Program-made: the position numbers and the translations under genes
Part shown: one piece after another, positions 18,290-37,598 of the stretch
Layout of the letters: each line of letters starts with the position of its first letter
Position numbering within the stretch: the first letter of the stretch is position 1
From: Rhodocyclales bacterium RIFCSPLOWO2_02_FULL_63_24
GTDB lineage: Bacteria; Pseudomonadota; Gammaproteobacteria; Burkholderiales; Rhodocyclaceae
DNA: 41,030 nt
NCBI GenBank assembly: GCA_001828935.1
Contig: MHZX01000123.1
Coordinates: 1 to 41,030 of the forward strand
Direction of reading: 5' to 3'
The notes under the pieces: generated by a model
Told to the model about the DNA's origin: nothing
The model's database searches: none
What the model saw: the letters and a program-made list of their open reading frames with translations, nothing else

Positions 18290-18334
18290 ATTATTCGGGG
18301 CTTCGGTTACCTGCCCGTTACAGAAATCTTACGA
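18290..18334 (-). promoter_or_regulatory. candidate PhoB box and -10 of the porin gene
   Basis: Minus strand: TCGTAAG-N4-CTGTAAC-N4-AGGTAAC (18334 to 18306) with an exact 11-bp period, then 10 bp, then AATAAT (18295-18290), a 5/6 match to the -10 consensus. There is no -35, as expected for an activator-dependent promoter. The leader would be about 85 nt. The PhoB assignment is inference from geometry and from recurrence at other phosphate-related genes here. Confidence 0.7.
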
Positions 18335-18421
18335 ATGCCGTTTGTTGTCCTTGTGTCACGGAGACAATGCTGCTGCTGTCCTGTCGAAAGGATAAGTATT
18401 GGAATTTGCGAGTGGCACCGG

Positions 18422-20329
18422 CTACATCGCGTAGCAGGCCTGCAGCGGAGTGGAAGTTCCCTCAGGGACGCAGCGCGCTGGTACTGGCGCGACGCCGTCG
18501 ATATCCGGCGCGGAGACTGGTGCGCCGGCGCTGCCGTGGTATTGGCGGCGTTCGACGAACAGCGCGCTGCCGGGGATGCGCTTGGCCTCCTTTTTTGCGT
18601 CACCGAGGGCGGCGGAGACATCGTAGTGGCCGGCAAAGGCGCCCGGTCGCACCATGACGCAGCCGATCGAGAGCGCCGGCAGCGGATGGAACACGGCCTG
18701 GCCGCGCCGGTCCTCGCCGCAATAGCCGCCAGCGGCAAGGTGCTCGGCGCTGACATGCTGCGCCAGCGCGGCGTCGAATTCGACGATGACGCGGCGCAGC
18801 CGCGCTTCCCAGTCGCGGCTTTGCATCAGCACGATGAAATCGTCGCCGCCGACATGGCCGATGAAATCCTCGTGATCGGCGACCGCCTCGCTCAGGAGGG
18901 TGCCGACTTGCTGGATCATCTGGTCGCCGCGGCGATAGCCGTAGGCGTCGTTGTAGGGCTTGAAGTGGTCGAGATCGCAGTAGGCGGCAACGAAGCCGTG
19001 CTCGGCCTCGATCAGGCGGTCCATCTGCTCGTTGATCGGCACGTTGCCGGGCAACTGGGTCAGCGGGTTGGCATAGCGCGCGGCGCGAATCTGCATGTCG
19101 GTGATGATCGCCATCAGTTCGCGCAGGAAGCCGATGCCGCGATAGCGGCCTTGTCGCGTGATGACGAAGGCATCGGATATCTCCGTGCCGCGCTGGCTGC
19201 CGATGATCTGCGCGACTTCCTGCACCGACTGGGCCTCGTCGACCAGCAGCGGAGGATCCATCAGCATCTTGCACGGACGCTTGCCATACAGCTCGCGGCG
19301 AAACGGGCGGGCGAAGCGGTCGATCAACGCGCTGCGCGTGATCACTCCCAGCGGCAGGCCGTTGGCCACCACCGGCACGATGTTGAGCGCCGGCTGATGC
19401 TCGAAAATCCGGTACACGGCGTCGTTGTCGGTGTCCGGCGTTACCGGCAGCAACTCGTGCAGGAGCTGCTCGATGCGCGGCACGCGACGTCCGGCGCGCG
19501 GGCGCGAGGGCAGCACCAGGATGCCGCTGTCCGTCGCCGCGGCCTGGACGCTGTGCGGCACGGCGGCAATGACGCGGTGCGGGCGGGCGATGCCGAAGCC
19601 CTGCACATAGGGAATCCCGAGATTGCGCAGCACCGCCAGTTGCTCGACGGTTTCCACGCCTTCGGCGATCAGGGCGCTGCCGCAGGCGTCGGCGATTTCG
19701 TGCATGGCGCGCACGAAATGCAGCTTGAGGGGATCGCTGTCGATGCCGGAGACGAAATGGCGGTCGATCTTGACGAACTCCGGCCGTACTTCGGACCACA
19801 TGCGCAGATTGGAGAAGCCCTCTCCCATGTCGTCCATGGCGATCTGGATGCCGATCCTGCGGAAGTCCTGCAGGGTCTCCTGCAGATCGGAAAAATCGTT
19901 CACCGACTCGTTTTCGGTCAACTCGATGACGATTCGCGACGGCGGTACGCCGAGGCGCAGCAGGACCTGGCGCACGGCGGCCAGACGCTTGCGGCTGGCG
20001 TGCAGGCAACTGATGCTCATGTTCACGAACAGCCGCAGTGCGCAAGGCTGCTCGGCGAACTGCAGGATGGCGGTTTCCACCGCCAGCCATTCCAGTTCGT
20101 GCGTGCATTGCGCGGTGGCGGCGGCCGCGAACAGGGCGTCGGGCGCGTGCAAGGCGGAATCTTCCGGGCCGCGGATCAGCGCTTCGCAGGCGAAATAGCT
20201 GCCCTGGCGCAGGTCGAGAATGGGCTGGTAAACGGCATGCAGGCCGCGATCCTGCATCAAGCTGCGCAGCATGTCGCCGTGAGGGCTTGCGCTTGCGGCG
20301 ATCTGGTCGCCTTGGTGCTGGATGTCCAT
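18422..20329 (-). CDS. EAL-CBS-GGDEF cyclic-di-GMP enzyme, last gene of Sia-like operon
   Basis: A soluble 635-residue protein with an EAL domain (about 15-255), a CBS-type pair (about 285-410) and a GGDEF domain (about 420-600). The EAL catalytic set is largely present: EAL (49-51), ELTEN (136-140), DD of MDDMGEG (165-171), KID (187-189) and AEGVE (222-226), though loop 6 is altered (DDMGEG for DDFGTG). The GGDEF signature reads GGDDF (494-498), with no RxxD inhibitory site upstream. It could degrade c-di-GMP, make it, or both. It occupies the place of the diguanylate cyclase SiaD in the P. aeruginosa sia operon. Its CBS-like module is visibly related to that of the phosphatase at the head of this operon. 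The C-terminus (605-635) is unconserved tail. Confidence 0.88.
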   Translation of the reverse strand: MDIQHQGDQIAASASPHGDMLRSLMQDRGLHAVYQPILDLRQGSYFACEALIRGPEDSALHAPDALFAAAATAQCTHELEWLAVETAILQFAEQPCALRLFVNMSISCLHASRKRLAAVRQVLLRLGVPPSRIVIELTENESVNDFSDLQETLQDFRRIGIQIAMDDMGEGFSNLRMWSEVRPEFVKIDRHFVSGIDSDPLKLHFVRAMHEIADACGSALIAEGVETVEQLAVLRNLGIPYVQGFGIARPHRVIAAVPHSVQAAATDSGILVLPSRPRAGRRVPRIEQLLHELLPVTPDTDNDAVYRIFEHQPALNIVPVVANGLPLGVITRSALIDRFARPFRRELYGKRPCKMLMDPPLLVDEAQSVQEVAQIIGSQRGTEISDAFVITRQGRYRGIGFLRELMAIITDMQIRAARYANPLTQLPGNVPINEQMDRLIEAEHGFVAAYCDLDHFKPYNDAYGYRRGDQMIQQVGTLLSEAVADHEDFIGHVGGDDFIVLMQSRDWEARLRRVIVEFDAALAQHVSAEHLAAGGYCGEDRRGQAVFHPLPALSIGCVMVRPGAFAGHYDVSAALGDAKKEAKRIPGSALFVERRQYHGSAGAPVSAPDIDGVAPVPARCVPEGTSTPLQACYAM

Positions 20330-20394
20330 GGTGTCCTGGTCCTTCTTCTGGATGCACGCGTGTGCCGCATCGCCGTCGGGCGCTGCCGCCGATG

Positions 20395-20787
20395 TCAGGC
20401 GGCTTCGGCGACGACGGTGTTGAACTTCAGCGAGCGGTGCTCTTCCTTCAGGTCGGTGCCGAATTCCAGCATCATGTCGTCGTCCTCGTCGTGCAGCCAG
20501 TCGACTGAAATCGACGGGCCGTTGCTGGCCTTCTCGTCGAGCATGCCGATCAGGGCGCGAATCAGCTTGGTGCTGGAACTGTTGAAATAGCGCAGGCCGA
20601 TGTTGACCTCGACCCTGCCGTCGGCGGGCAGTTTTTCCAGGTAGTTTTGCAGGCTGGAGCGGATCGGGCCGTAGAAACTCATCGCGTTCTCCGGGTAGGA
20701 CTCGCCGTGCATGCTGAGGCAGTGGCGGGAAAACTCGAAGCGGACTTCCGGCGTTTCGTTGCTGGCGGGGATGTGCAGGTCTTCCAT
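20395..20787 (-). CDS. siaC: SiaC-family (DUF1987) regulatory phosphoprotein
   Basis: A 130-residue protein of the DUF1987/SiaC family. In Pseudomonas aeruginosa SiaC is phosphorylated by SiaB and dephosphorylated by SiaA, and the unphosphorylated form activates the diguanylate cyclase SiaD. The family core is visible: SRHCLSMHGESYPENAMSFY, then the LRYFNSSSTK segment, where the family's phosphoacceptor Thr/Ser lies (Ser70 or a neighbour here). It is 28 nt downstream of siaB and 65 nt upstream of the EAL-GGDEF gene. Together these make a partner-switch whose output is most likely the adjacent c-di-GMP enzyme. Confidence 0.88.
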   Translation of the reverse strand: MEDLHIPASNETPEVRFEFSRHCLSMHGESYPENAMSFYGPIRSSLQNYLEKLPADGRVEVNIGLRYFNSSSTKLIRALIGMLDEKASNGPSISVDWLHDEDDDMMLEFGTDLKEEHRSLKFNTVVAEAA

Positions 20788-20815
20788 GATGGCTTGCTCC
20801 TGTAGTGCGGGGGGG

Positions 20816-21385
20816 TCAGATGGTGGCGCGCAGGTAGAGGTCGGCGCGTCCGCCGCTTGCCTCGCTGGCGAAGGCGATGCTGTATTCGATCGGTTCCGTG
20901 GCGTCGCGCGCCATGGTCAGGAAACCCAGGCCGGCGCCCTTGCTGACGCTGTCGCTGGCGTGGTCCTCGTTGCGCAGTTGTTCGCGGTAGGCTGCCTTGA
21001 TCTCGGCGATGCTCATCTGGCGCAGGGGTTCCAGCTTTTCGTGCAGGCGCGAGATGTCCTCCATGCGCACCGGATTGCCGCAGACGACAAAGAACTTCTC
21101 CTCGTCGTTGCGCCCGACGGCGAGCGCGCCGCACTTGGCCGGCGGTCCTGCGCCGTCGTCCTCGGTCAGCTCCGGGGCGTAGTGCAGGATGTTCTGCGCC
21201 ATTTCGATGAAGGTGGAGAACACCTTGCGCCGCGCCGCGCTGCTGGCGTTGACGCTGTCCAGGCGCTGCTTGAGCGAGTCGCCGATGGCGGCGATGACGT
21301 TCTGCGAAAACACGCCGGTGTAGTAGAAGATGACGCCGTTTTCGTGCGCGGTGTCGCGGAAGGTATTGAACAGGTCGAGTTTCAT
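20816..21385 (-). CDS. siaB: SiaB-family protein kinase
   Basis: A 189-residue protein resembling the SiaB (DUF6272) kinases, a GHKL-like ATPase relative that phosphorylates SiaC. The opening (DLFNTFRDTAHENGVIFYYTG) and the helix with FIEMAQNILHYAP, the likely N-box with its Asn, are characteristic; a late glycine-rich stretch (SKGAGLGFLTMARD) would bind ATP. The start ATG 21385 was chosen because it lies 14 nt after the phosphatase stop and gives the family N-terminus; the frame stays open far upstream without support. Confidence 0.85.
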   Translation of the reverse strand: MKLDLFNTFRDTAHENGVIFYYTGVFSQNVIAAIGDSLKQRLDSVNASSAARRKVFSTFIEMAQNILHYAPELTEDDGAGPPAKCGALAVGRNDEEKFFVVCGNPVRMEDISRLHEKLEPLRQMSIAEIKAAYREQLRNEDHASDSVSKGAGLGFLTMARDATEPIEYSIAFASEASGGRADLYLRATI

Positions 21386-21399
21386 GGTGAATGTCCCGG

Positions 21400-22698
21400 T
21401 CACAGGCGAAAGCCGATCAGGCCGACATCGTCGCGCCGCGCATCCTTGCCCTGGTAGTCCTCCAGCGCCTGCAGGATGACGCCGCGCAGCGGTGCCAGGG
21501 TGGTAGCGTGGCGGTGTTCGGCAAGCAGTGCGCACAGCCGCTTCTTGCCGAAGGCGATGCGCTTCGGCCCGCCCGGCTGGTCGATCAGGCCGTCTGTGGT
21601 GAGGTATGCGGCCGTGCCCGGCGGTAGCGGGAAGCTGTGGTTCTGCCAGGTCTGGTCCATTGGCGTCGAGGCGTAGCCGACGCCGGCCCGGTCGCCTTCG
21701 AACAGTTCGATCTCCTGACCGGGACGCAGCAGGATCAGCGGCGAGTGGGCGCCCGCATAAATCATCTGCCGTTCGGCCGGGGCCACCCAGCAGAAGGCGG
21801 CGTCCATGCCGTCGTCGGAGCGGTGCTCGGCTTCGTCGTTGCTGGCTGCGGCCTTGTGGCGGTGGTCGATCTGGCCCAGCGCGCTCTTGACCCGCTGGTT
21901 GACCTCCGTCATCACCGCCGCCGGATCCTGCCTGTTTTCCTCGCGCAAAGCGCTGTCGATGAAGGAGGCCATGATCAATGTCATGAAGGCGCCGGGCACG
22001 CCGTGGCCGGTACAGTCGAACAGGGTCAGGAAAAAGCCGTCGTCGAAGCGGCGGCAATAGAAGTAATCGCCGCCCACCAGATCGCGCGGCTCCCACAGCA
22101 GCAGATGGTCCGGCAGCAGGCTGCGCAAGGCTTCGCGCGAAGGGCGCAGGAACGAACGCTGGATGACGCTGGCGTAGTCGATGCTCTCCATCACGATCCG
22201 GCTCTTCTCCGCCTGCATGCCGGCGATGGCGCGCACCAGATCCTGGCCGGTGCCCATACCGAGGTAGCGGCCGCCGGCGGTGATGACGAAGCCGTCGTTG
22301 AGGGTCTTGCCGCCGGCATCGACGACGCGGAAGCTCAGGTCCTGGATGCTCATGTCGCCGTCGACGATCAGCGGCTGCTTGTCCATGAAGGCGATGCAAC
22401 TCTTGCGGCCGTAGACCTCGCGGTGAAACGGCCGGGCGAAGGAATCCATGAAGATGTTGCGGTTGATCAGGCCGATCGGCCGGTCGTCTTCGGCCACCGG
22501 CAGCGCCGACAGGCCCGGCGCGGCATCGAACAGGGCGAATACTTCGTCGTTGGTCTGGCTGGGCGATACGGCGGGCAGCGGTATCACCAGGCTGATGGCG
22601 AGGCCCTTTTGCTGGCCTGGCGCCGCGGCTGCCGGAGCGGCGGGCGCGGCGGGTGCGGCGGGTGCGGCGGGTGCGGCGGCGACTGAAAGAACGGGCAT
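21400..22698 (-). CDS. CBS-domain plus PP2C/SpoIIE phosphatase, SiaA-like
   Basis: A soluble 432-residue protein. After a short Ala/Pro linker (about 6-28) there is a CBS-type sensory module (about 35-165) and a PP2C/SpoIIE phosphatase domain (about 170-432), with metal-binding Asp in LVGGDYF (Asp211), Asp in FDCTGHGVPGA (Asp228) and the C-terminal DDVGLIGF. It heads the operon in the position of SiaA, the phosphatase that reactivates SiaC. P. aeruginosa SiaA is membrane-bound with a HAMP domain; here the sensor is a cytoplasmic CBS-like unit related to the one in the EAL-GGDEF protein. Start ATG 22698 has GGAG at 7 nt and lies downstream of the inferred transcription start; an ATG at 22728 would fall too close to the -10. 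Confidence 0.87.
   Translation of the reverse strand: MPVLSVAAAPAAPAAPAAPAAPAAAAPGQQKGLAISLVIPLPAVSPSQTNDEVFALFDAAPGLSALPVAEDDRPIGLINRNIFMDSFARPFHREVYGRKSCIAFMDKQPLIVDGDMSIQDLSFRVVDAGGKTLNDGFVITAGGRYLGMGTGQDLVRAIAGMQAEKSRIVMESIDYASVIQRSFLRPSREALRSLLPDHLLLWEPRDLVGGDYFYCRRFDDGFFLTLFDCTGHGVPGAFMTLIMASFIDSALREENRQDPAAVMTEVNQRVKSALGQIDHRHKAAASNDEAEHRSDDGMDAAFCWVAPAERQMIYAGAHSPLILLRPGQEIELFEGDRAGVGYASTPMDQTWQNHSFPLPPGTAAYLTTDGLIDQPGGPKRIAFGKKRLCALLAEHRHATTLAPLRGVILQALEDYQGKDARRDDVGLIGFRL
22635..22680 (-). repeat. 9-bp tandem repeat encoding an Ala/Pro linker
   Basis: Several 9-bp units (GTGCGGCGG on the plus strand, the upstream ones imperfect) encode Ala-Ala-Pro repeats near the N-terminus of the SiaA-like phosphatase. 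The number of units could vary by slippage without breaking the frame. Confidence 0.7.
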
Positions 22699-22731
22699 GG
22701 AATGCTCCGGTAAATGTTGTTGGAGCAAACC

Positions 22732-22776
22732 ATCCTAGGGTTCGAATATTACAGATCGATAACGACTTTGTTGCAG
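22732..22776 (-). promoter_or_regulatory. candidate PhoB box and -10 of the Sia-like operon
   Basis: Minus strand: CTGCAAC-N4-TCGTTAT-N4-CTGTAAT (22776 to 22748), exact 11-bp period, then 10 bp, then TAGGAT (22737-22732). The spacing is the same as at the porin and pstS promoters. Transcription would begin near 22725, about 27 nt before the chosen start codon. Confidence 0.6.
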
Positions 22777-22795
22777 TGCGGCGGTGTCCAGCTTA

Positions 22796-24325
22796 TCAGG
22801 CGGGCGACTTGTCCAGGTGCGGCAGATCGAGGCCGCGGATGCGTTTCAGCTTGTTGGGGATGTCGCCGAGCAGGGCCGCATGACGCGGTCCGTGCCAGCC
22901 GCCGATCAGGGTTACGGCTTCGCGCAAGTGCGGGTCCTTGCCGGCGCAGACCATCAGCAAGGTGCCGGCACTGGCCAGATCGTTGAGCTGACCGAGTTCC
23001 TCCTGCAAGCCCGCAAGCCGCTTGATGACCGTGACGCCTGACTTGCCAGGGATCATGGGGCCGAAGAACTCGATGGCGTAACGCAGGCGCTTGATGCCGA
23101 TGCGCAGTTCATGCAGCGACGGAGGATAGTCGACGCGGGCGGCGTCGGCCAGTTCGAGAATCCGCTTCAGCAGCCGGCGCAGGCGACGGTCGGCGAATTG
23201 CAGCAGGGACGGCATTCCCGCGGCGGCGTCCGCCGCTTCGACAAAGGGTGCGCGCTGCAGCAGGCTGCCGGCGGTCAGCAGCAACTGGCCGTAGCCGGGT
23301 TGGCGCAGCACATGGCGGGTGTCTGCGCGCGCGGCGTAAAGGCGGTTGGTGATGGCGCCGGCCAGGTCGGTCAGGCGCGGCTCATCGGGCAGGGCCTTGG
23401 CCACCGGGGCGACAATCTCCGCCATCAGCACGTCGAGGTCGCGGGCCTGCCCCAGCGCGCGCATCAGTTCGCGCATCGGCGGCAACAACTGCTCGGCGAA
23501 ACCGGCCGGCAGCACCGGACGGAACATGCGCAGCGCGGCACGCAGGCGGCGCGTGGCGACCCGCATCTGATGCACGTATTCGGGATCGTCGCGGTGCACC
23601 GCCCCATCGTGGTTGAGTTGCAGGTGCGACAGGCAATCCAGCGCGATCAGGCGGAACGCCGCGAGCGGCGTGTCGCCGGCGTCGATCGGCACTTCGCCGG
23701 CCTTCACCGGGGCCGGCGGCGTGGCGAGGAACAGCCGGTAGCCGCGCTCCGCCTTGGACAGCAGCAGCGGCGGCAGGGCCAGGCGCTGGCCGAGCTGCAG
23801 GGCGAGGGCGTACAGACTGTCGATGCCGCCCGAGAGCAGTTGCAGTTCGAGTTCGGAGATCGTGTCGCGGCGGCCGCTGGAGGCAATCCAGCCGCGGTCG
23901 AGTTTGACCAGGATGCGGTTGTCCTTGCCCATATCGAGTTGCCAGACGGTGCGCCGGAAATTGGTTTCGAAGATCGCCGCGAGGCGGCCGGCGATCTTGT
24001 CCCGCTGCAGCCAGTCGCGCAGTTCGGCGTCCTCAACGTGGGAGAAATCGAAATGGTTGAGGTAGGGCGCCTGCCACTCGGGTCTTTGTGTCAGGCCGCC
24101 GCGCGACTCGTCCTGGCGCTTGATGGTCTGCTGCCACGTGTTGCCGTGCTTGCGCAGACGCAGCAGGATGCCGGCGCGGCGCAGCGCCATGCGTCGGGTG
24201 TCGTAATAGATGCTGACCAGATGGTGCTGCTCGCGCGCGGACTCGCGGGCAAGCGACGGGTGCCGCAGCAGGGCGCCGTGACGGTCCTCGGCCAGCGCCA
24301 GCTTGAGAGCGATTTGTTGAGCCAT
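22796..24325 (-). CDS. CYTH-CHAD domain protein (YgiF-like)
   Basis: A 509-residue cytoplasmic protein with an N-terminal CYTH tunnel domain (about 1-205) and a C-terminal CHAD domain (about 215-500) made of two helical repeats, each with His and Arg/Lys-rich helices (YVHQMRVATRRLR near 248, LHELRIGIKRLRY near 405). E. coli YgiF with the same layout is an inorganic triphosphatase, and CHAD domains bind polyphosphate. The ExExK metal motif that opens CYTH domains is degenerate here: MAQQIALK in place of MAQEIELK, losing both Glu (positions 4 and 6). ELELQLL near 170 is retained. Catalysis is therefore doubtful, and a polyphosphate-binding role seems more likely. Confidence 0.87.
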   Translation of the reverse strand: MAQQIALKLALAEDRHGALLRHPSLARESAREQHHLVSIYYDTRRMALRRAGILLRLRKHGNTWQQTIKRQDESRGGLTQRPEWQAPYLNHFDFSHVEDAELRDWLQRDKIAGRLAAIFETNFRRTVWQLDMGKDNRILVKLDRGWIASSGRRDTISELELQLLSGGIDSLYALALQLGQRLALPPLLLSKAERGYRLFLATPPAPVKAGEVPIDAGDTPLAAFRLIALDCLSHLQLNHDGAVHRDDPEYVHQMRVATRRLRAALRMFRPVLPAGFAEQLLPPMRELMRALGQARDLDVLMAEIVAPVAKALPDEPRLTDLAGAITNRLYAARADTRHVLRQPGYGQLLLTAGSLLQRAPFVEAADAAAGMPSLLQFADRRLRRLLKRILELADAARVDYPPSLHELRIGIKRLRYAIEFFGPMIPGKSGVTVIKRLAGLQEELGQLNDLASAGTLLMVCAGKDPHLREAVTLIGGWHGPRHAALLGDIPNKLKRIRGLDLPHLDKSPA

Positions 24326-24355
24326 CGGGTCGATGCCGGAAGCGGATTGAAGCCC

Positions 24356-24400
24356 AGTTTAGCCTTCGCTGCCGCGAGAATTATTACAGTTGTATTGCAC
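24356..24400 (-). promoter_or_regulatory. possible PhoB box upstream of the CYTH-CHAD gene
   Basis: Minus strand: GTGCAAT-N4-CTGTAAT (24400 to 24383) at 11-bp period, a third heptamer in register that is poor (CTCGCGG), then 10 bp and TAAACT (24361-24356). This is weaker than the other four sites because the half-site next to the -10 does not match. Confidence 0.35.
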
Positions 24401-24424
24401 CCGCATCGTGTTGCGGCGGAGCGG

Positions 24425-24453
24425 CAAGAGTCGGCGCTGGCGACACGGCGGCG
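24425..24453 (+). repeat. dispersed 26-bp repeat, perfect copy
   Basis: CAAGAGTCGGCGCTGG followed by CGACACGGCGGCG, identical over 29 bp to the copy at 29166. It lies between the CYTH-CHAD gene and creB. The core can fold into a short imperfect hairpin (GTCG...CGAC). Confidence 0.85.
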
Positions 24454-24526: not shown

Positions 24527-25210
24527 GTGCAAACCACAATTCTGATCGTCGATGACGAACCGAGCATTGCCGACACCCTGGATTACGCGCTGCGTACCGA
24601 GGGCTTCCAAACCCTTTGCGTCGGGCTAGGCCGGCAGGCTTTGGCGGCCTTGCACGACAATGACGTCGCTCTGGTCATTCTCGATGTCGGCCTGCCAGAC
24701 ATGAATGGCTTTGATGTGTGTCGCGAACTGCGGCGCGAATCGGATGTGCCGGTGATTTTCCTCACGGCGCGCGCAGACGAGGTCGATCGGATTGTGGGTC
24801 TGGAACTCGGCGCCGACGACTATGTGGCGAAGCCCTTCAGTCCGCGCGAAGTGGCCTCGCGGGTGCGCGCCATCCTGCGCCGGGCCCGTCAACCGGGGCC
24901 CGTCGTGAGGGCGGAGCGGCCGCGCTTTCAGATCGATATCGAAGCTGCGCGCATCGCCTGGGACGGTACCTGGCTGGCGCTGACGCGCTATGAATACGGG
25001 CTGCTTTGTGCCTTGTTGGAGCGTCCCGGGCGGGTGCTGAGCCGCGCCCGTCTGATGGAACTGGTCTGGAGCGATGCCGAGGAAAGCCTGGAGCGCACGG
25101 TGGACGCGCACGTCAAGACCCTGCGTGCCAAGCTGCGCGCGATCCGCGGCGATGACCCGATCGAGACGCACCGCGGACTCGGTTACAGCATACGCGGCAG
25201 CGCATCGTGA
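24527..25210 (+). CDS. creB: response regulator CreB
   Basis: OmpR-family response regulator of 227 residues: receiver domain (1-120) with the acidic pair DDE (10-12), phosphoacceptor Asp53 (LDVGLPDMNG) and Lys near 102 (AKPFS), and a winged-helix output domain (about 130-225). With creC and creD downstream it is the CreBC system, which in enterobacteria responds to growth conditions and envelope stress and activates creD. The start is GTG 24527. It overlaps creC by 4 nt (GTGA). Confidence 0.92.
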   Translation: MQTTILIVDDEPSIADTLDYALRTEGFQTLCVGLGRQALAALHDNDVALVILDVGLPDMNGFDVCRELRRESDVPVIFLTARADEVDRIVGLELGADDYVAKPFSPREVASRVRAILRRARQPGPVVRAERPRFQIDIEAARIAWDGTWLALTRYEYGLLCALLERPGRVLSRARLMELVWSDAEESLERTVDAHVKTLRAKLRAIRGDDPIETHRGLGYSIRGSAS

Positions 25211-26631
25211 ACATCGCGATCCGCCTGTTCCTCGGATATTTCCTGATCGTCGGCGTGGCGGCCTGGTTTGTGGTCAATATTTTCGCCCGCGAAGTCGAGC
25301 CCGGCGTACGCCAGGCCACCGAGGACACGCTGGTCGATACTGCCAACTTGCTGGCCGAATTGGCGGTGGACGAACTGGCCGCCGGCAAGATTGGTCAGGG
25401 CGGTTTTGCCGCCGCCGTGCGCAACGCGCAACTGCGCGAACCGCAGGCGTCGATTTGGGGCGTCAGCAAGGAGTCGGTCGATTTCCGGGTCTATCTGACC
25501 GATGCCCGCGGCATTGTCGTGTATGACTCCGAGGGCGTCGCGGTGAATGCCGATTACAGCCAGTGGCGCGACGTGGCCCGCGTCCTGCACGGCGAATACG
25601 GCGCTCGCAGCACGCGCGAAGACCCTGCCGATCCGGAGAGTTCGGTGATGTATGTGGCGGCGCCAGTGCTGCGTCAGGGCGCGCTGATCGGCGTGCTCAC
25701 TGTGGCCAAGCCAATGACGGCACTGACACCTTATGTCGAGCGCGCCCGCGACCGGGTCAGGCGCGCGGGCTTCGTCCTGCTCGGGGTCTCGGCCGTGATC
25801 GGCTTGTTGTTTACGCTTTGGCTGACCTGGTCGCTGAACCGGCTGCGCGACTATGCGCGGTCGGTCGCCAACGGCGACAAGGTGCTGCCGCCGACCGTCG
25901 GCGGGCGCCAGTTGTCCGAGTTGGCGCGGGCGCTGGCCCTGATGCGGGAACGCCTGGATGGCAAGCAGTATGTCGAAAACTACGTGCAAAGCCTCGCCCA
26001 CGAAATGAAAAGCCCCTTGACGGCCGTGCGCGGCGCCGCCGAGTTGCTGCAGGAAGACCCCTCCGTCGCGGACCGGCAGCGCTTCGCCCGCAGCATCGTC
26101 GAGCAGGCCGAGCGCATGCAGTTGATCATCGAGCGTCTGCTGGCGCTGGCGCGCATCGAACAATTGCAGGCACCCGAGGAGATTCGCGACATCGCGCTGG
26201 GCGATCTGGCGCGCGAGGCGCTGGCCGGTCGGGCGGAACAACTGGCGGCGCGCGGCATCACGGCGCGCATCGGCGGCGAACTGGCGGCCCAGGTGCGCGG
26301 CGATCCTTTCCTGCTGCAACAGGCCGTCGGCAACCTGTTGGACAACGCCATCGAATTTTCTTCGGATGGCGCGGGGATCGAAATCGACATCGGCGGCGAT
26401 GGCGCCCACCACGTTGTTTCGGTACGCGACCACGGTCCCGGCGCGCCGGATTTCGCCTTGCCGCATTTGTTTGAGCGCTTCTATTCGCTGCCGCGCCCGG
26501 CCACCGGTCGGAAGAGCACCGGTCTGGGCCTCGCCTTCGTGCGCGAAGTGGCCAAGCTTCACGGCGGTCGCGTCGAGTTCGCCAATGCGGTTGACGGCGG
26601 CGCCGTGGCCCGGCTTGCGCTTTCCCTCTGA
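25207..26631 (+). CDS. creC: sensor histidine kinase CreC
   Basis: Inner-membrane sensor kinase of 474 residues. Two membrane segments (about 6-25 and 185-206) flank a periplasmic sensor of the CreC type; a HAMP-like linker follows. The H-box is SLAHEMKSPLTAVRGAAELL with His265, nearly identical to what I recall of E. coli CreC, then N-box (NLLDNAIEF), G1 (DHGPGA) and G2 (STGLGLAFV). Start GTG 25207 overlaps the creB stop by 4 nt, so the two are co-translated. Confidence 0.93.
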   Translation: MNIAIRLFLGYFLIVGVAAWFVVNIFAREVEPGVRQATEDTLVDTANLLAELAVDELAAGKIGQGGFAAAVRNAQLREPQASIWGVSKESVDFRVYLTDARGIVVYDSEGVAVNADYSQWRDVARVLHGEYGARSTREDPADPESSVMYVAAPVLRQGALIGVLTVAKPMTALTPYVERARDRVRRAGFVLLGVSAVIGLLFTLWLTWSLNRLRDYARSVANGDKVLPPTVGGRQLSELARALALMRERLDGKQYVENYVQSLAHEMKSPLTAVRGAAELLQEDPSVADRQRFARSIVEQAERMQLIIERLLALARIEQLQAPEEIRDIALGDLAREALAGRAEQLAARGITARIGGELAAQVRGDPFLLQQAVGNLLDNAIEFSSDGAGIEIDIGGDGAHHVVSVRDHGPGAPDFALPHLFERFYSLPRPATGRKSTGLGLAFVREVAKLHGGRVEFANAVDGGAVARLALSL

Positions 26632-26707
26632 CGGGCGCCTGCCGGCTCCCCCTCCCCAGCACCTCCCCCCGCGAGGGGTATGGGAGCGTCGTGAGTGGCT
26701 GTGTGGC

Positions 26708-26755
26708 TTTCACGCGACTTCATACTCGCTTCATTTTCGCTTCTCCGCTACTTCA
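26708..26755 (+). promoter_or_regulatory. array of five CreB cre-tag half-sites before creD
   Basis: TTCAC (26708), TTCAT (26718), TTCAT (26729), TTCTC (26740) and TTCAC (26751) follow one another at 10, 11, 11 and 11 bp. The known enterobacterial CreB site is TTCAC-N6-TTCAC, i.e. 11-bp spacing. A hexamer TAGCCT at 26766 could serve as a -10, and creD starts at 26804. CreB binding is inferred from the match and the context. Confidence 0.75.
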
Positions 26756-26803
26756 CCGCGGGCTCTTAGCCTCACTCCACCGAATTCATCCGAGGGGAGT
26801 GCC

Positions 26804-28120: not shown

Positions 28121-28121
28121 G

Positions 28122-29165: not shown

Positions 29166-29194
29166 CAAGAGTCGGCGCTGGCGACACGGCGGCG
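29166..29194 (+). repeat. dispersed 26-bp repeat, left boundary of the ParA/AlbA_2 cassette
   Basis: Identical over 29 bp to the copy at 24425 and, over its first 26 bp, to the copy at 31809. It stands 48 bp after the GH3 remnant and 52 bp before the ParA-type gene, in the same orientation as the copy beyond the other end of the gene pair. Confidence 0.85.
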
Positions 29195-31758: not shown

Positions 31759-32598
31759 CTATTGCGAATTCAGTTGCGCCAGTCCACCTTGCAAATGATC
31801 GGTTGGCTCAAGAGTCGGCGCTGGCGACACGGCGCTGGGGCGCGTCGCGGTCACCGCGGCGGCGACCGGCTGCCATGCGCGGACCAGTTCCAGCCGGCCG
31901 TCGTGGTGCTCGACGATGGCGCTGCAACTATCGACCCAGTCGCCGCAATTGACGTAGACCACGTCGCCCAGCGGGCGGATCGCGGCGCTGTGGATGTGGC
32001 CGCAGATCACGCCATCGAGCCCGCGCTCGCGCACGGCGCGGATCACCGAATCCTCGAAGTCGAAGATGAAGGAAACGGCACGCTTGACGCGGCTTTTGGC
32101 GTAGCCGGCCAGCGACCAGTAGCCGGGGCGACGCAGCAGTCGGCGCAGTCGCGAGAGCGAGGCGTTTACGCGCACCAGCAGGTTGTAGCCGAGATCGCCA
32201 AGCACCGCCAGCCAGCGATGGTAGCGTGTCACCTGGTCGAATTCGTCGCCATGCAGCAGCAGATAGCGGCGACCGTCGGCGGCTACATGGATATGTTCGC
32301 GGCAGACCACGATGTCGCCGAATGAAATGCCGTCGTATTCCCGCAGCGCCTCGTCGTGGTTGCCGGGAATCAGCATCACGTGCTGGCCGTGGCGGGCGCG
32401 GCGCAGGATCTTCTGCACCACGGTGTTCTGTGCCGCGGTCCAGTGGATGCCGCGGTTCATGGCCCAGAAGTCGATGATGTCGCCGATCAGGAACAGGTTC
32501 TCGCTGTCGTAGTCGCGCAGGAAGTCGAGCAGGCGTTCGGCCTGGCAGCCGCGGGTGCCGAGATGGACGTCGGAGATGAAGATCGAGCGGACCTGCAT
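31759..32598 (-). CDS. plcP: PlcP-type metallophosphoesterase (phospholipase C of lipid remodelling)
   Basis: A calcineurin-like metallophosphoesterase, 279 residues. All metal motifs are present: D10-x-H12 (SDVHLG), Asp40 (IGDIID), N80-H81 (PGNHDE), His116 (LLHGDEF), and GHIH (200-203). It resembles UDP-2,3-diacylglucosamine hydrolases, but the TRGC start, RRYLLLHGDEFD, the YWSL segment and VNCGDWVDSCSAIVEHHDG match PlcP of Sinorhizobium, which cleaves phosphatidylcholine/ethanolamine to diacylglycerol under phosphate limitation. The operon (glycosyltransferases, DgkA, OlsB) supports this reading. Residues after about 243 are an atypical tail, part of which is encoded by the dispersed repeat. 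Its start overlaps the upstream gene by 1 nt. Confidence 0.85.
   Translation of the reverse strand: MQVRSIFISDVHLGTRGCQAERLLDFLRDYDSENLFLIGDIIDFWAMNRGIHWTAAQNTVVQKILRRARHGQHVMLIPGNHDEALREYDGISFGDIVVCREHIHVAADGRRYLLLHGDEFDQVTRYHRWLAVLGDLGYNLLVRVNASLSRLRRLLRRPGYWSLAGYAKSRVKRAVSFIFDFEDSVIRAVRERGLDGVICGHIHSAAIRPLGDVVYVNCGDWVDSCSAIVEHHDGRLELVRAWQPVAAAVTATRPSAVSPAPTLEPTDHLQGGLAQLNSQ
31809..31834 (+). repeat. dispersed 26-bp repeat, right boundary of the ParA/AlbA_2 cassette, inside plcP 3' end
   Basis: CAAGAGTCGGCGCTGG followed by CGACACGGCG, in the same orientation as the copy at 29166 and separated from it by 2.6 kb containing only the ParA and AlbA_2/HATPase genes and their flanks. It encodes, on the minus strand, residues about 255-263 of the plcP product. 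Confidence 0.85.
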
Positions 32599-33788
32599 CA
32601 GTCGGCCTGGAAGCCCAGGCGCGATTCGTCCGCCGCCGGGATGTCGGGGCGGGCGATGGCATCGCGCAGGGTCTCCACCAGTAATTCATGGATGCGCTCC
32701 CAGTCGAGCGCGGCGACGCTGTGCGGGGCGGCTGTGGCGGCCTGGCGCAGGGCGCCGGGGCGGGTGACGAGATCGAGCGCGGCGCGTACGAACTGGGCGC
32801 TGGCGCCGGGTTCGGCCAGCATGCCGTTGTCGCCGTGGCGGATCAGCTCGGCCGCCGCCGCCATGCGGTAGGCCACCACCGGCAGGCCGCTGGCCAGCGC
32901 TTCGAGCGTGACGTTGCCATAGGTCTCGGTCATGCTCGGGAACAGGAACAGGTCGGCCGAGGCGTAGTGGGTGGCGAGGTCCTCGCCGTGGCGCATGCCG
33001 GCGAAGATATGCTGCGGATGCGATCGCTCCAGCCGCTGCCGCGCGGGGCCGTCGCCGACCAGCAGGAGCCGCGCCTCGGGGACGTGGGCGCGGATTGCGT
33101 CGAAGGTGGCGAGTACCAGCGGCAGGTTCTTCTCCGCCGCCAGGCGGCCGACGTGGGCCACCACCAGGTCCTCGTCGCGCACTCGCCAGGCGGCGCGCAA
33201 GACCGCGCTGCGGCGTGTCGGAGTGAACAGCGCGGTATCGACGCCACGGGCCACCACGCGGATGCGGCGGTAGCCCCGGCGCTGGAGTTCGGCGCCGAGT
33301 TCGCGGCTGGGCACCAGGGTCATCCGGCTGCGGTTGTGCAGGCGCCGCAGGTGGGCGGCGACCAGTCTTTCCAGCCAGGCGACGCCGTAATGCCGGCTGT
33401 AGGCGTGGAAATTGGTGTGGAACTCGGAGACCACCGGGATATCCAGCGCGCGCGCCACGGCGATGGCCGAGGCGCCCAGCGGCCCTTCGGTGACCACCTG
33501 CACCACGTCGGGCCGTTCGGCGCGCCACTGGCGGCGCAGCAGGCGCGATGCCGGCAGGCCGAACTTGAGGCCGGCATAGCCGGGGATCGGCAGGCCGCGC
33601 ACCAGCGTGGTTGCATAGCGCGCTGTAGCCGGCGGCGCGTCCTGCGCATGCTGGCGCGGCCGCGTCAGGCTGACGCGATGACCGCGCGCCAGCAGGCCCT
33701 GCACCATGCGCTCCAGCGTCATGGCGACGCCATTGACTTCCGGCGGGTAGGTCTCGGTGACGATGGCGACGTGCAAGGGCGCCGTCAT
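32598..33788 (-). CDS. GT4-family glycosyltransferase (MgtA/SqdX-like)
   Basis: A 396-residue GT-B fold retaining glycosyltransferase. The N-terminal domain opens with VAIVTETYPPEVNGVAMTL, and FHTNFHAYSRHYG (near 123) is typical of SqdX/MgtA-like enzymes that glycosylate diacylglycerol or related lipids. The C-terminal nucleotide-sugar domain has the VGRLAAEKNL start, and ETYGNVTLEALASGLPVV carries the E-x7-E motif. The lipid acceptor is inferred from the operon; sugar donor unknown. Its stop shares one base with the plcP start. It is separated by 124 nt from dgkA; that gap contains a strong hairpin at 33820-33840. Confidence 0.85.
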   Translation of the reverse strand: MTAPLHVAIVTETYPPEVNGVAMTLERMVQGLLARGHRVSLTRPRQHAQDAPPATARYATTLVRGLPIPGYAGLKFGLPASRLLRRQWRAERPDVVQVVTEGPLGASAIAVARALDIPVVSEFHTNFHAYSRHYGVAWLERLVAAHLRRLHNRSRMTLVPSRELGAELQRRGYRRIRVVARGVDTALFTPTRRSAVLRAAWRVRDEDLVVAHVGRLAAEKNLPLVLATFDAIRAHVPEARLLLVGDGPARQRLERSHPQHIFAGMRHGEDLATHYASADLFLFPSMTETYGNVTLEALASGLPVVAYRMAAAAELIRHGDNGMLAEPGASAQFVRAALDLVTRPGALRQAATAAPHSVAALDWERIHELLVETLRDAIARPDIPAADESRLGFQAD

Positions 33789-33819
33789 GTCGCGCTCACG
33801 GGACTACCATCCCCCCCAG

Positions 33820-33840
33820 CCCCCTGCCCAAGGCAGGGGG
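33820..33840. repeat. GC-rich inverted repeat in the lipid operon
   Basis: CCCCCTGCC and GGCAGGGGG form a perfect 9-bp stem with a 3-nt loop in the 124-nt gap between dgkA and the second glycosyltransferase gene. No T-tract follows on either strand, so it is more likely an mRNA-stabilising or processing hairpin, or a dispersed element, than a terminator. Confidence 0.6.
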
Positions 33841-33912
33841 TGACGGTAGTTCGCCGCTGCGCGGCTCCGTGGTTTGGCTGCGCCGCCCTTGGGACGGCCC
33901 GGCGAGCGGCGC

Positions 33913-34302
33913 TCAGAACCACAGCACCAGCGACCAGGTCGCCAGCACGTTGAGCAGGGCGATCAGCACCGCGGCGCTGCCGATGTCCTTGGCGCGCTTC
34001 GAGAGCCGGTGCCGGTCCAGCGAAATGCGGTCGATCGCGGCTTCGATCGCCGAGTTGAGCAGTTCGACGATCAGCACCAGCAGGATGCTGGCGATCATCA
34101 GCGCCTTGGCCGTGCCCGGCAGAGGCAGCACCAGGGCGATCGGGATCAGCAGCGCGGCCAGCAGGCTTTCCTGGCGGAAGGCGTCTTCGTTGAGGTAGGC
34201 GGCGTGCAGGCCGGACAGCGAATAGTTGAAGGCGTTCCAGATGCGGCGCAGGCCGGTCTGGCCCTTGAAGGGGCTTTCTTCGGCGATGGGATCGGTATTC
34301 AT
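33913..34302 (-). CDS. dgkA: diacylglycerol kinase
   Basis: Small integral-membrane diacylglycerol kinase, 129 residues with three hydrophobic segments after an amphipathic start (FKGQTGLRRIWNAFNYSLSGL). The catalytic signature ELLNSAIEAAIDR with its Glu/Asn is near residue 75. It returns diacylglycerol to phosphatidic acid. In this operon it would compete with the glycosyltransferases for the diacylglycerol made by PlcP, or recycle it. The start ATG 34302 overlaps the upstream glycosyltransferase stop by 4 nt. Confidence 0.93.
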   Translation of the reverse strand: MNTDPIAEESPFKGQTGLRRIWNAFNYSLSGLHAAYLNEDAFRQESLLAALLIPIALVLPLPGTAKALMIASILLVLIVELLNSAIEAAIDRISLDRHRLSKRAKDIGSAAVLIALLNVLATWSLVLWF

Positions 34303-35603
34303 GGGTTCGCAGGGATGGCTTGGGGTTGGGGCAGATCGCGCGGTGCGGTGGCTGGCGCGCGCGCCAGTTCCTGGTACAAGGCCGCCAGCCGGGCGCCCTG
34401 GGTCGCGGCATCCCACTCGCGGGCGAACGCTACTGCCTCCGTCGCCATGGCGGCGAGGGTGGCGGGCCGGTCGAGCAACTCCACGAGTTGCGCGGCAAAG
34501 CCGGCCGGCGTGCCGGCGGCGGCGATGGCGCCGCGTTGCGGGGCGACGATCTCGGCCGCGCCGAGGGCCGCAATGGCCAGCACCGGCAGGCCGATCGCCA
34601 TGGCTTCGAGCAGCACCAGGCCCTGGGTTTCGGTACGCGAGGCGAAGGTGAATACGTCGGCGGCGGCGTAGCAGTCGCGCAAGCTGCCCTGGCGCGGCAG
34701 GTAGCCGACGAAGCGGACATGATCATCGAGTCGCAACGCCGCGGCCTGGCGGCGAAGCGCCGGCAGCGCAGGCCCTTCGCCGGCGATCACCAGCATCAGC
34801 TCGGGCACCTGCCGGCGCGCCAGCGCGACCATGTCGAGCAGGAAGCCGATGTTCTTTTCGAAGGCGGCGCGGCCGACGAAGAGCGCGAGCTTGCGCTCCG
34901 GGGCGATGTCCCAGGCGCGGCGGAATCGATCGCCGTCGCCGCGCAGGAACTGGCTTTCGGGCAGGCCGGTGGCGATTACCTGCAGCGGCATGGTGACGCC
35001 GTAGTCGCGCAAGGTGGCAGCCATCGGCTGCGAGGGCACGACGACGGCATCGAGCGCATTGCACTGGTGCCGGGCCAGCCGGCGCGCGGCGGCGCGCAAC
35101 ACGCGCTTGGGCAGGACGCGGATGTAGTGGAACAGGTATTCCTCGAAATGCGTGTGGTAGGTCGCAATGCAGGGTATGCCCCAGGCCCGCGCCAGGTGCA
35201 GGCCCGCGTAGTGCGCGGCGAAAGGGGTCTGCACATGCACCAGATCAAAGCCGCAAGAGTCGGCGCTTGCCGGCCCGCGAAGCGGAATCCCCGGCAGACA
35301 GAGTCCGAGACGGCGATCGAGGGCGGCCAGGGCGCGCCATTGCATCAGCCGGTCTTCCGGGTCCAGCGGCACGGCACGCGACGGCAGGCGCGTTATGTTC
35401 GCCGCGGCGTCGGCGGCGGGATCGGTGCCCGGATAGTCGGGCGCCACCACCGTGGTATGCACGCCAAGGCCGGCGAGCGTGGCGCGAAAGGTCTGGATCG
35501 AGGTGGAAACGCCGTTGATGCGCGGAAAATAGACGTCGCTGAGCATCAGCACCTTCAGCGCATGGCTATCCCTTACTGCTGCGTCGATTCCGCTCAAACT
35601 CAT
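34299..35603 (-). CDS. GT4-family glycosyltransferase, probable glycolipid synthase
   Basis: A second GT-B glycosyltransferase, 434 residues. The acceptor domain begins VLMLSDVYFPRINGVSTSIQTF and has YHTHFEEYLFHYI near 149, reminiscent of diacylglycerol glycosyltransferases; the donor domain has FVGRAAFEKNIGFL and ETQGLVLLEAMAIGLPVL with the E-x7-E motif. With PlcP in the same operon it is the best candidate for the Agt-type enzyme that makes monoglycosyl-diacylglycerol during phosphate starvation; the other GT4 gene could add a second sugar. It overlaps olsB and dgkA by 4 nt each. A partial copy of the dispersed repeat lies in its coding region (35254-35274). Confidence 0.85.
   Translation of the reverse strand: MSLSGIDAAVRDSHALKVLMLSDVYFPRINGVSTSIQTFRATLAGLGVHTTVVAPDYPGTDPAADAAANITRLPSRAVPLDPEDRLMQWRALAALDRRLGLCLPGIPLRGPASADSCGFDLVHVQTPFAAHYAGLHLARAWGIPCIATYHTHFEEYLFHYIRVLPKRVLRAAARRLARHQCNALDAVVVPSQPMAATLRDYGVTMPLQVIATGLPESQFLRGDGDRFRRAWDIAPERKLALFVGRAAFEKNIGFLLDMVALARRQVPELMLVIAGEGPALPALRRQAAALRLDDHVRFVGYLPRQGSLRDCYAAADVFTFASRTETQGLVLLEAMAIGLPVLAIAALGAAEIVAPQRGAIAAAGTPAGFAAQLVELLDRPATLAAMATEAVAFAREWDAATQGARLAALYQELARAPATAPRDLPQPQAIPANP
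35254..35274 (+). repeat. partial copy of dispersed 26-bp repeat within a glycosyltransferase gene
   Basis: CAAGAGTCGGCGCTTGC then CGGC; the first 14 bases match the perfect copies exactly, after which similarity fades. It encodes part of a Ser/Ala-rich stretch (PASADSCG) that interrupts an otherwise family-like segment. Confidence 0.45.
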
Positions 35604-36373
35604 GCCGCGAGCGGCTCCGCCGGCTTGACGAAGTGCCGCATGTAGCGCGGGTTCATGCGCGACATCGGCAGCAGCAAGAGCAGGTCGGCGGTATTGAAAT
35701 CCGGATCCCAGGCCGGTTCGCCGCAGACCCAGGCGCCGACCCGCAGATAGCCCTTGATCAGCGGCGGGATCAGCGCCGGCTGGCCGTTGGCGAGGCGTTC
35801 GAAGGGCAGGCCGTTTTGCGGGAAGACGCGGTATTCGGCCGGCGCCATGTGCGCCGGGTCCATCTGGCTGAACAGATTGGCGGCGTTGTGTCCGCCGTCG
35901 GCCATGCCGATCGAGGCGCAGCCCATCAGGTATTCGTAGTTGTTGCTCACCATGTACTCGGCGAGCCCGGCCCAGAGCAGGGTGATCACCGCGCCGCTGC
36001 GATAGTCGGGATGGATGCAGGAGCGGCCGACTTCCACCATGCGATTGCGCAGGTTTTGCAGGCGGTTGATGTAGAACTCGTTCTCCGAGTAGTAGTTGCC
36101 GACGCGGCGCGAAGCTTCGGGCGACAGGATGCGGTAGGTGCCGACGATGCGGTCGCCCTGGCTTTCGCGCACGATCAGGTGATCGCAGAAGGCATCGTAG
36201 AGATCGATGTCGTGATTCGGCGTACGGGTCGGGATGCGGGCGCCGAGTTCCTCGACAAACACCTTGTAGCGCAGGCGCTGCGCTTCGCGCACTTCCTCTT
36301 CGCTGCGCGCCAGCGCAACGCTGTAACCGACTTTCTGGCTGGTGACCGCGGCTTCTATCAGATTCTTATGCAT
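35600..36373 (-). CDS. olsB: OlsB-like ornithine N-acyltransferase (GNAT fold)
   Basis: A 257-residue acyltransferase of the OlsB/hemolysin-like GNAT group, which attaches a 3-hydroxyacyl chain from acyl-ACP to ornithine, the first step to phosphorus-free ornithine lipids. Family features: EAQRLRYKVFVEELGA (near 29-45), DAFCDHLIVRE, IVGTYRILSPE, VEVGRSCIHPDYRSG (near 113) and the LIKGYLRVGAWVCGEPAWDPDFNTADL block (near 206-232). The second enzyme, OlsA, is not in the window. Start ATG 36373 has AGGAGA upstream. It is the first gene of the lipid operon and is divergent from pstS, sharing a 231-bp control region with PhoB-like arrays pointing both ways. Confidence 0.87.
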   Translation of the reverse strand: MHKNLIEAAVTSQKVGYSVALARSEEEVREAQRLRYKVFVEELGARIPTRTPNHDIDLYDAFCDHLIVRESQGDRIVGTYRILSPEASRRVGNYYSENEFYINRLQNLRNRMVEVGRSCIHPDYRSGAVITLLWAGLAEYMVSNNYEYLMGCASIGMADGGHNAANLFSQMDPAHMAPAEYRVFPQNGLPFERLANGQPALIPPLIKGYLRVGAWVCGEPAWDPDFNTADLLLLLPMSRMNPRYMRHFVKPAEPLAA

Positions 36374-36405
36374 GGCGCTCTCCTGTTCTCTTGGGGTTCG
36401 CCGCC

Positions 36406-36461
36406 ATTCTCGAAAGCCGGGGTTACCGCCTGATTGCCGCCGCGTTACGGATAGGTTGCGG
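36406..36461 (-). promoter_or_regulatory. four-copy PhoB-like array and -10 of the olsB lipid operon
   Basis: Minus strand: CCGCAAC-N4-CCGTAAC-N4-CGGCAAT-N4-CGGTAAC (36461 to 36422), all in exact 11-bp register, then 10 bp, then GAGAAT (36411-36406; 4/6 to the -10 consensus). Four half-sites on one face of the helix would allow two PhoB dimers to bind. Confidence 0.65.
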
Positions 36462-36532
36462 CTTCCCGATGGCGGCGCCGGTCACGTTTCCGACCGAACC
36501 TCAAACATTGAAAATTGATCTTCCGGCGGGCG

Positions 36533-36566
36533 ATTTCACGGCTCTGTAACATTCGCTGCCTAGACT
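36533..36566 (+). promoter_or_regulatory. candidate PhoB box and -10 of pstS
   Basis: ATTTCAC (36533-36539), N4, CTGTAAC (36544-36550), then 10 bp, then TAGACT (36561-36566). The half-sites match the classical CTGTCAC at 5/7 and 6/7, and the spacing to the -10 is the same as at the other PhoB-like promoters in this window. The leader is about 30 nt and carries the AAGGAG site of pstS. Confidence 0.7.
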
Positions 36567-37585: not shown

Positions 37586-37598
37586 GCAGCCGTGATAC

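Follow-up and report, generated by a model that had tools for sequence, protein, structure and literature searches.

The window examined here, 41,030 nucleotides of DNA, is the entire contig C123 from a draft genome of 4.31 Mb (Rhodocyclales bacterium RIFCSPLOWO2_02_FULL_63_24). From 16.4 to 40.3 kb it appears to carry a gene island of the phosphate-starvation (Pho) response, in a bacterium of the Sulfuritalea group, and the promoter sites shared within the island are probably boxes for the response regulator PhoB; we put the probability of this reading at roughly 0.88. An earlier note on this DNA had described heptamers close to NNGYAAY at an 11-bp period, with a −10 hexamer 10 bp after the last half-site, at the promoters of a porin gene, a Sia-like operon, an olsB-like operon and pstS. 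The shared architecture is confirmed, and all four sites are present as described, with one heptamer at pstS that strictly fits NNGYAAY (the second repeat is just ATTTCAC). The 10-bp gap between the last half-site and the −10 hexamer is also found at a box before a sixA-like gene, but not at a candidate box before a CYTH-CHAD gene, where it is 21 bp. The six promoters are as follows:

18290-18334, minus strand: porin box, TCGTAAG, CTGTAAC, AGGTAAC, 10 bp, AATAAT; score 29.5
22732-22776, minus strand: box of the Sia-like operon, CTGCAAC, TCGTTAT, CTGTAAT, 10 bp, TAGGAT; score 27.8
36406-36461, minus strand: box of the olsB operon, CCGCAAC, CCGTAAC, CGGCAAT, CGGTAAC, 10 bp, GAGAAT; score 29.2
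36533-36566, plus strand: pstS box, ATTTCAC-4-CTGTAAC-10-TAGACT; score 24.0
16872-16916, minus strand: sixA box, CTGTCAT-4-TTGTCAC-10-TAACCT, 27 bp upstream of the sixA start; score 18.2
24356-24400, minus strand: CYTH-CHAD candidate box, GTGCAAT-4-CTGTAAT, 21 bp, TAAACT; score 14.7

The scores are those of a matrix made of one 7-bp half-site and one −10 hexamer, with spacers ignored and five promoter classes equally weighted. It was trained on 45 promoters of relatives (20 olsB, 18 pstS, 4 order-level pstS, 2 porin, and 1 Sia), one of 46 collected sites (G051) having been dropped; the set is free of sites from this genome and contains orthologs of its promoters. As background we used 38 other stretches of the same genome (748,248 b, including 156 N), five of which were chosen for pstS-like genes, phoB or a CHAD paralog, and the others picked without prior inspection. 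The window holds four matches at ≥22 and five at ≥17, whereas the background holds none at ≥22 and three at ≥17; the best of these (21.9) is the promoter of the genome's own phoB, and another (21.1) is the promoter of a second sixA gene beside a CHAD paralog. Over 100 dinucleotide shuffles of the window, matches at ≥17 averaged 0.05 per shuffle, and there were none at ≥22.

Promoter classes were also left out of the training one at a time, because the training set includes orthologs of the tested promoters. With their own class left out, the porin (26.4), olsB (24.8), and Sia (26.7) boxes each had no background match as high, and with both pstS classes left out the pstS box scored 17.7, with one background match as high. 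When training was confined to the four order-level pstS promoters, the matrix gave 27.2 for Sia, with no background match as high, and 18.6 for porin, 17.6 for pstS, 17.4 for sixA and 16.4 for olsB, with two background matches each; CHAD scored 11.0, with at least 23 background matches as high. When the layout was varied across 477,640 b (the window and 25 relatives' loci), a period of 11 with a spacer of 10 gave 121 matches at ≥17 (the background of this genome gave three), a period of 11 with other spacers gave 17–52, and periods of 8–10 and 12–14 gave 0–5; this control is partly circular, because the layout was fixed at training and training promoters are among the 121 matches. A separate sequence-only model, whose E-values are rough, made three matches at E ≤ 10 when run on the whole genome (pstS, olsB, and Sia; 150 of 409 candidates scored), all of them inside the window. 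Across the genus, 30 of 31 genomes were matched by this model at E ≤ 10, mostly at pstS and olsB promoters that had served as training promoters.

The sites are conserved in relatives. We take the host to belong to the Sulfuritalea group of the Rhodocyclaceae because of the labels on 25 named loci of relatives that carry the island-type CHAD gene (70–86% identity): 11 are labeled Sulfuritalea, seven Rhodocyclales or Rhodocyclaceae, and the remainder are other or unspecific. Boxes within 300 bp of a start were surveyed in 26 relatives' loci, where identity thresholds decide which orthologs are counted, some contigs are cut, and the two genome sets (G and L160–L228) overlap. At ≥20, a box precedes pstS in 13/13 cases (four outside training), olsB in 18/18 (six outside training), and the porin gene and siaC in 2/2 relatives each; the sixA, siaC, CHAD, and EAL promoters of the survey all lie outside training, as judged by contig match. 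Genes internal to operons had no box even at ≥14 (pstC, 0/12; pstA, 0/12; GTb, 0/19; dagK, 0/17; GTa, 0/19; plcP, 0/20; together 0/99), nor did crp in the single locus surveyed (0/1), and random 300-mers of other DNA gave 1/2000 at ≥17. The porin box is kept in two close orthologs and was not found in two paralogs of 73% identity or in four homologs of 47–50% identity. Two expectations of the earlier note are borne out by these data, namely that the sites would be kept in relatives (pstS, 13/13; olsB, 18/18; sixA, 15/17) and that other DNA of the genome would be matched far less than the window (0 vs. 4 at ≥22).

Boxes in the relatives also precede genes other than those of the window. In 10 loci a box lies before an acyltransferase gene between pstS and olsB, and in one locus each before genes for a chemoreceptor, PhoX, Porin_O_P, a CorA-like protein, and a DUF3419 protein (143 bp from the box), a type of betaine-lipid synthase. 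A CBS histidine kinase hybrid is boxed in one relative's locus, and similar genes occur in two more. One relative's island also contains a response-regulator gene (L179:13971-14663) that is 32% identical to CreB and has a box score of 26.2; it is possible that this is a second regulator under Pho control.

The identity of the regulator is suggested by the match to known PhoB promoters. The matrix, trained without Escherichia coli, was run across 24 kb of strain MG1655 and gave three matches at ≥17, the top two being the phoA (20.5) and phoB (20.3) promoters. In the draft genome, phoBR is located on a contig other than that of the window, with a box at L231:11379-11423 whose −10 hexamer ends 28 bp upstream of the phoB start (11452). 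The PhoB and PhoR proteins score above the cut-offs of TIGR02154 (348.7 vs. 296.2) and TIGR02966 (405.8 vs. 334.2), respectively, and the recognition helix of PhoB (RTVDVHIRRLR) is identical to that of E. coli PhoB, whereas the helix of CreB differs.

The sixA-like gene was not among the promoters of the earlier note and extends the island to the left:

16395..16844, minus strand: SixA-like histidine phosphatase (PF00300, 45.9 bits, cut-off 21.7)

The protein scores 65.5 bits against the SixA equivalog TIGR00249, below the cut-off of 74.5. In relatives its box is present in 15/17 cases at ≥17 and in 17/17 at ≥14, and ends 26–30 bp upstream of the start. A further 44 loci around the CHAD paralog (700,405 b) contain 20 matches at ≥17, 18 of them lying 24–43 bp before a sixA gene (18 of the 44 sixA genes examined there). 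A general rule for sixA beyond the family was considered and rejected, as only 2/47 order-level sixA loci, nearly all of them from outside the Rhodocyclaceae, have a box at ≥17; random 120-mers gave 0/940 at ≥17 and 2/940 at ≥14. SixA adjoining CHAD is known in archaea (PMC10892726, partial text), and SixA within phosphate islands is known from marine HIMB59 (PMC10734472, partial text). In the available portions of the literature on SixA with the Pho regulon, or with CHAD and polyphosphate, control of sixA by a PhoB box was not found.

The CYTH-CHAD gene is the least certain member of the regulon:

22796..24325, minus strand: CYTH-CHAD protein (PF05235, 192.5; PF01928, 49.1)

Two or more half-sites in tandem, with an 11-bp period, are present in 18/23 CHAD orthologs vs. 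39/5000 background 140-mers. Because these tandem half-sites are in most cases accompanied by a −10 hexamer at 21–22 bp, CHAD looks as if it were bound by PhoB with a shifted array, and its membership is putative. The weaker fifth site that the earlier note had placed before CYTH-CHAD holds up as far as the tandem half-sites are concerned, but its −10 hexamer lies at 21 bp and its score is not outstanding. No comparable box was found ahead of CHAD in five promoters of CHAD paralogs. The CHAD domain binds polyphosphate (PMC6416229, partial text); a literature search found no paper joining the CHAD domain, polyphosphate, and PhoB (the sole text match was the word Phobius).

Several observations weigh against assigning all these sites to PhoB. 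The training sites were chosen as the best under a fixed 11/10 layout, and about 22 of the 121 matches of the layout control are themselves training promoters, judging by contig match. The third background match (21.5) is the promoter of a gene for a small membrane protein (L258:6585-6629), and the third match in MG1655 (18.8) falls within phoR, so that the matrix has either false positives or targets not yet known. The models PRK10161 (298.6 vs. 471) and PRK11006 (352.7 vs. 390) score PhoB and PhoR below cut-off. For sixA, the box drops to 12.0 without either pstS class, and boxes are rare outside the family (2/47 order-level loci at ≥17, 4/47 at ≥14). For CHAD, the box is never among the top matches in left-out runs (8 to 50 or more background matches are as high), it occurs in 7/24 loci at ≥17 and 12/24 at ≥14, and its −10 hexamer is mostly 21–22 bp away, being exactly 10 bp away in 4/23 orthologs. 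The true PhoB targets could therefore be pstS, olsB, and porin only, with the Sia, SixA, and CHAD sites weak and without effect; the weaker and variable geometry at CHAD, the mostly absent sixA box outside the Rhodocyclaceae with its leaning on the pstS classes, and the existence of confirmed boxes without phosphate regulation (PMC4415409, partial text) all favor this narrower regulon. We consider it improbable, given that the Sia box stays high without its own class and has counterparts before siaC in 2/2 relatives, that sixA boxes keep their distance from the start in all 17 relatives, and that tandem half-sites at CHAD far exceed the background. For CHAD alone, the conserved CTGTAATAAT might be, instead of a PhoB half-site, the extended −10 of an ordinary promoter: TGTAATAAT, the block with the strongest conservation ahead of CHAD, resembles the extended −10 consensus. 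We regard this as unlikely; against it stand the same 18/23 orthologs, four of which have exactly 10 bp between the last half-site and the −10 hexamer.

A further alternative is that the boxes are those of a different regulator of the OmpR family that uses 11-bp repeats; the chief candidate is CreB, the gene for which is inside the region:

24527..28120, plus strand: creB, creC, creD (CreB, 341.2 vs. 273; CreC, 642.1 vs. 356; CreD PF06123, 479.8)
26719-26772, plus strand: cre-tag-like array before creD, four TTC[AT][CT] at an 11-bp period, 10 bp, TAGCCT

CreB too uses TTCAC repeats spaced 11 bp, which counts for this explanation, as do the scores of CreB and CreC above the cut-offs of their models and the distal half-site at pstS, TTTCAC. 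An extra TTCAC lies ahead of the creD array, 10 bp from the next repeat, so that four repeats are in register. In its promoter layout the array equals the Pho boxes, but its motif is a different one, and it is not counted as a Pho box, the Pho matrix giving it just 11.5. Runs of at least three TTC[AT][CT] repeats were absent from the 748,248 b of other DNA and occur in the window only before creD, and no TTCAC pair was seen by eye in the six boxes, pstS having a single TTCAC. We reject CreB as the regulator of the boxes because creD has its own array, and the explanation is very unlikely on other grounds as well: the boxes match those before phoA and phoB in E. coli, as well as the promoter of phoB in this genome, and no creB of ≥50% identity was found in the 26 relatives' loci (3.6–21.5 kb each), where boxes are present, although creB may lie elsewhere in those genomes. 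With PhoB retained as the regulator, the proposal of the earlier note that all these genes form one Pho regulon is supported by the background and conservation tests, and is qualified by the CHAD spacing and the creBCD array. At L258, GTAAG occurs three times at an 11-bp period, followed after 10 bp by TAGGAT; this array may be that of another regulator, or mark an unknown Pho target. The small membrane protein there resembles DUF485, which is not known to have a link to phosphate.

The signaling operon behind the Sia box consists of four genes:

21400..22698, minus strand: SiaA-like phosphatase, CBS module and SpoIIE/PP2C (PF07228, 81.1; PF00571, 33; run on 21400-22728)
20816..21385, minus strand: SiaB-family kinase, DUF6272 (PF19788, 134.5; above cut-off for subfamily NF038262, 177.4 vs. 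85)
20395..20787, minus strand: SiaC-like phosphoprotein (PF09345, 127.9)
18422..20329, minus strand: EAL-CBS-GGDEF protein (PF00563, 168.4; PF00990, 61.8)

All the Sia equivalogs score below cut-off (SiaA, 205.4/700; SiaC, 74.7/150; SiaD, 46.5/290; SiaB NF038264, 112.4/225). Operons of relatives that begin with siaC are boxed (L168, 24.4; L176, 23.2). A box directly before the EAL gene was considered as a rule and rejected, since it is found within 300 bp in 1/10 relatives' copies; within 600 bp and at ≥14 it is found in 7/10, mostly preceding a small open reading frame (ORF) or siaC, and in an eighth copy (L176) the siaC box (23.2) lies about 580 bp upstream. The EAL-CBS-GGDEF protein is probably a cyclic di-GMP (c-di-GMP) phosphodiesterase, because its EAL motifs are intact and its GGDEF motif reads GGDDF. 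Of the catalytic motifs of EAL phosphodiesterases, the window protein has EAL, NMS, ELTEN, DDMG, KID, EGVE, and QG; these motifs are intact in 8/9 relatives' copies covering them (one L176 copy has E-to-K in two motifs), and GGDDF is present in the window protein and in 9/9 relatives' copies. Across 124 residues, the CBS module of the SiaA-like protein is 40% identical to that of the EAL protein. The SiaA-like protein was matched in 22 same-genus genomes, including that of the window (counted by eye), and a module match and the CHAD gene share a contig, less than 15 kb apart, in 18/20 genomes (exceptions, G016 and G024), a count that omits G002, a complete same-genus genome without an island-type CHAD, and G011, which has no module match. 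No paper joining SiaD, SiaC, and phosphate starvation was found in a literature search.

A box of the form YTGTCAT-4-NTGAAAA-4-YTGCAAC-10 occurs in 11 relatives' loci (e.g., L160:13396-13440), and in five of the 11 the EAL gene follows it at a distance of 324–353 bp. The L160 copy is ahead of an ORF of 85 residues without a Pfam match, and nine of the 11 boxes have no complete ORF of at least 80 residues starting within 260 bp. It is possible that this type of box serves a small protein or RNA.

The island exceeds the span given in the earlier note: on the left it reaches sixA, and to the right it includes the pst genes as far as pstB. Its gene row runs from the sixA-like gene through the porin, EAL-CBS-GGDEF, siaC/B/A-like, and CYTH-CHAD genes to creBCD and accessory genes, then the plcP-like gene, two glycosyltransferases, dgkA, the olsB-like gene, and pstSCAB. 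The flank left of about 16 kb contains carA, carB, ftsH, and genes for a pterin-binding enzyme, a phosphomutase, a sulfate-type symporter, and a Crp-type regulator. The remaining genes of the row are the following:

17082..18197, minus strand: porin (Porin_4), outer membrane (PF13609, 133.7 bits)
31759..32598, minus strand: metallophosphoesterase, PlcP candidate from its context (PF00149, 50.1)
32598..33788, minus strand: GT4 glycosyltransferase GTa (PF13692, 110.9)
33913..34303, minus strand: diacylglycerol kinase DgkA (PF01219, 110.5; profile run on 33913-34416)
34299..35603, minus strand: GT4 glycosyltransferase GTb (PF00534, 117.1)
35600..36373, minus strand: OlsB-like N-acyltransferase (PF13444, Acetyltransf_5, 122.4)
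36605..40341, plus strand: pstS, pstC, pstA, pstB, the last from about 39538 (TIGR02136, TIGR02138, and TIGR00972 above cut-off; pstA PF00528)

The LpxH equivalogs score the PlcP candidate below cut-off (47.6 vs. 134 and 46.5 vs. 190.35), as do the OlsB NCBIfam equivalogs the OlsB-like protein (182.1 vs. 320 and 181.3 vs. 350). In the window creBCD sits between CHAD and plcP; the order differs in relatives, where CHAD mostly comes directly after plcP. Between creD and plcP lies a pair of genes for a ParA-like ATPase and an AlbA/Schlafen-type protein (29247-31489). A glycoside hydrolase family 3 gene (28083-28967) covers only positions 19–126 of the 316-position profile and looks shortened. A 22-bp repeat, GTGTCGCCAGCGCCGACTCTTG, has exact copies in the window at 24425-24446, 29166-29187, and 31809-31830, and copies with three mismatches at 6302-6323 and 16945-16966; its 13-bp core has 52 copies in the 748 kb sampled elsewhere in the genome and 23 in L160–L184.

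We propose that low phosphate would be sensed via PstSCAB and PhoR, leading to phosphorylated PhoB, which would bind head-to-tail on the 11-bp repeats that replace the −35, leaving 10 bp between the last half-site and the −10, and would recruit RNA polymerase. The genes switched on would provide phosphate uptake (pst and porin), phosphorus-free membrane lipids (OlsB-like, the two glycosyltransferases, DgkA, and PlcP-like), polyphosphate-linked proteins (CHAD and SixA-like), and a signaling operon (SiaA/B/C-like with the EAL phosphodiesterase) that would lower c-di-GMP. More tentatively, and on balance doubtfully, the Pho regulon of the Rhodocyclaceae might be wired to a polyphosphate-linked pair and to a CBS-based signaling layer. 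The pair would be CHAD and the SixA-like protein, whose genes both have a box of their own in the Sulfuritalea group; the layer would comprise a CBS module shared by the SiaA-like phosphatase, the EAL phosphodiesterase, and the relatives' histidine kinase. The module might sense, e.g., adenine nucleotides, acting after PhoB had made these proteins, as a second intracellular sensor deciding on c-di-GMP lowering and biofilm exit.

What began as a hunch from sequence is now a tested prediction of the phosphate response of this lineage, in which the SixA-like phosphatase, the CHAD protein, and the CBS-linked c-di-GMP module are likely new Pho members; with six promoters and a clear rule of spacing, the prediction can be put to a direct test. 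The family also includes Accumulibacter. In this other genus, pho and pst are up at low phosphate, and polyphosphate-accumulating relatives are relevant to wastewater treatment (PMC12604563, partial text), for which the joining of Pho control, polyphosphate, and aggregation would be of practical interest.

The PHO box is described as 11-bp repeats of seven conserved and four less conserved bases (PMC4415409, partial text). As in the E. coli Pho regulon (phoA and phoB), the repeats here have an 11-bp period and end 10 bp before the −10, and both E. coli boxes are matched; unlike in E. coli, the half-site drifts to CTGTAAY or CGGTAAC, and the candidate membership extends to CHAD, SixA-like, Sia-like, and EAL genes. 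The island resembles the plcP/agt lipid-remodeling clusters (PMC4796936, partial text) in having a PlcP-type metallophosphoesterase and glycosyltransferase neighbors behind a Pho box, but has OlsB-like and DgkA genes in the same row, with CHAD next in relatives, and its PlcP is a candidate. The phosphate islands of HIMB59 are flexible and carry pstSCAB, phoRB, ppk, ppx, SixA, diacylglycerol kinase, LpxH-like, and glycosyltransferase genes (PMC10734472, partial text), whereas phoBR here is on another contig; the main text of that paper mentions neither Pho box nor CHAD nor c-di-GMP. For the c-di-GMP enzyme there is a precedent in RapA of Pseudomonas fluorescens Pf0-1, a c-di-GMP phosphodiesterase whose gene lies behind a PhoB box and which is expressed at low phosphate (PMC3032545, partial text); the EAL protein here differs in bearing a CBS module and in sitting after SiaA/B/C-like genes. 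Because of this precedent, the claim of the earlier note that signaling and CHAD genes would extend the regulon stands for its new members, as an extension in membership that is not wholly new in kind. The operon itself is like SiaABCD of Pseudomonas aeruginosa (PMC7647112, partial text) in having a phosphatase, a kinase, and a SiaC-type phosphoprotein ahead of a c-di-GMP enzyme; unlike in that system, the SiaA-like protein has a CBS module where P. aeruginosa SiaA has HAMP and membrane segments, and EAL-CBS-GGDEF takes the place of SiaD.

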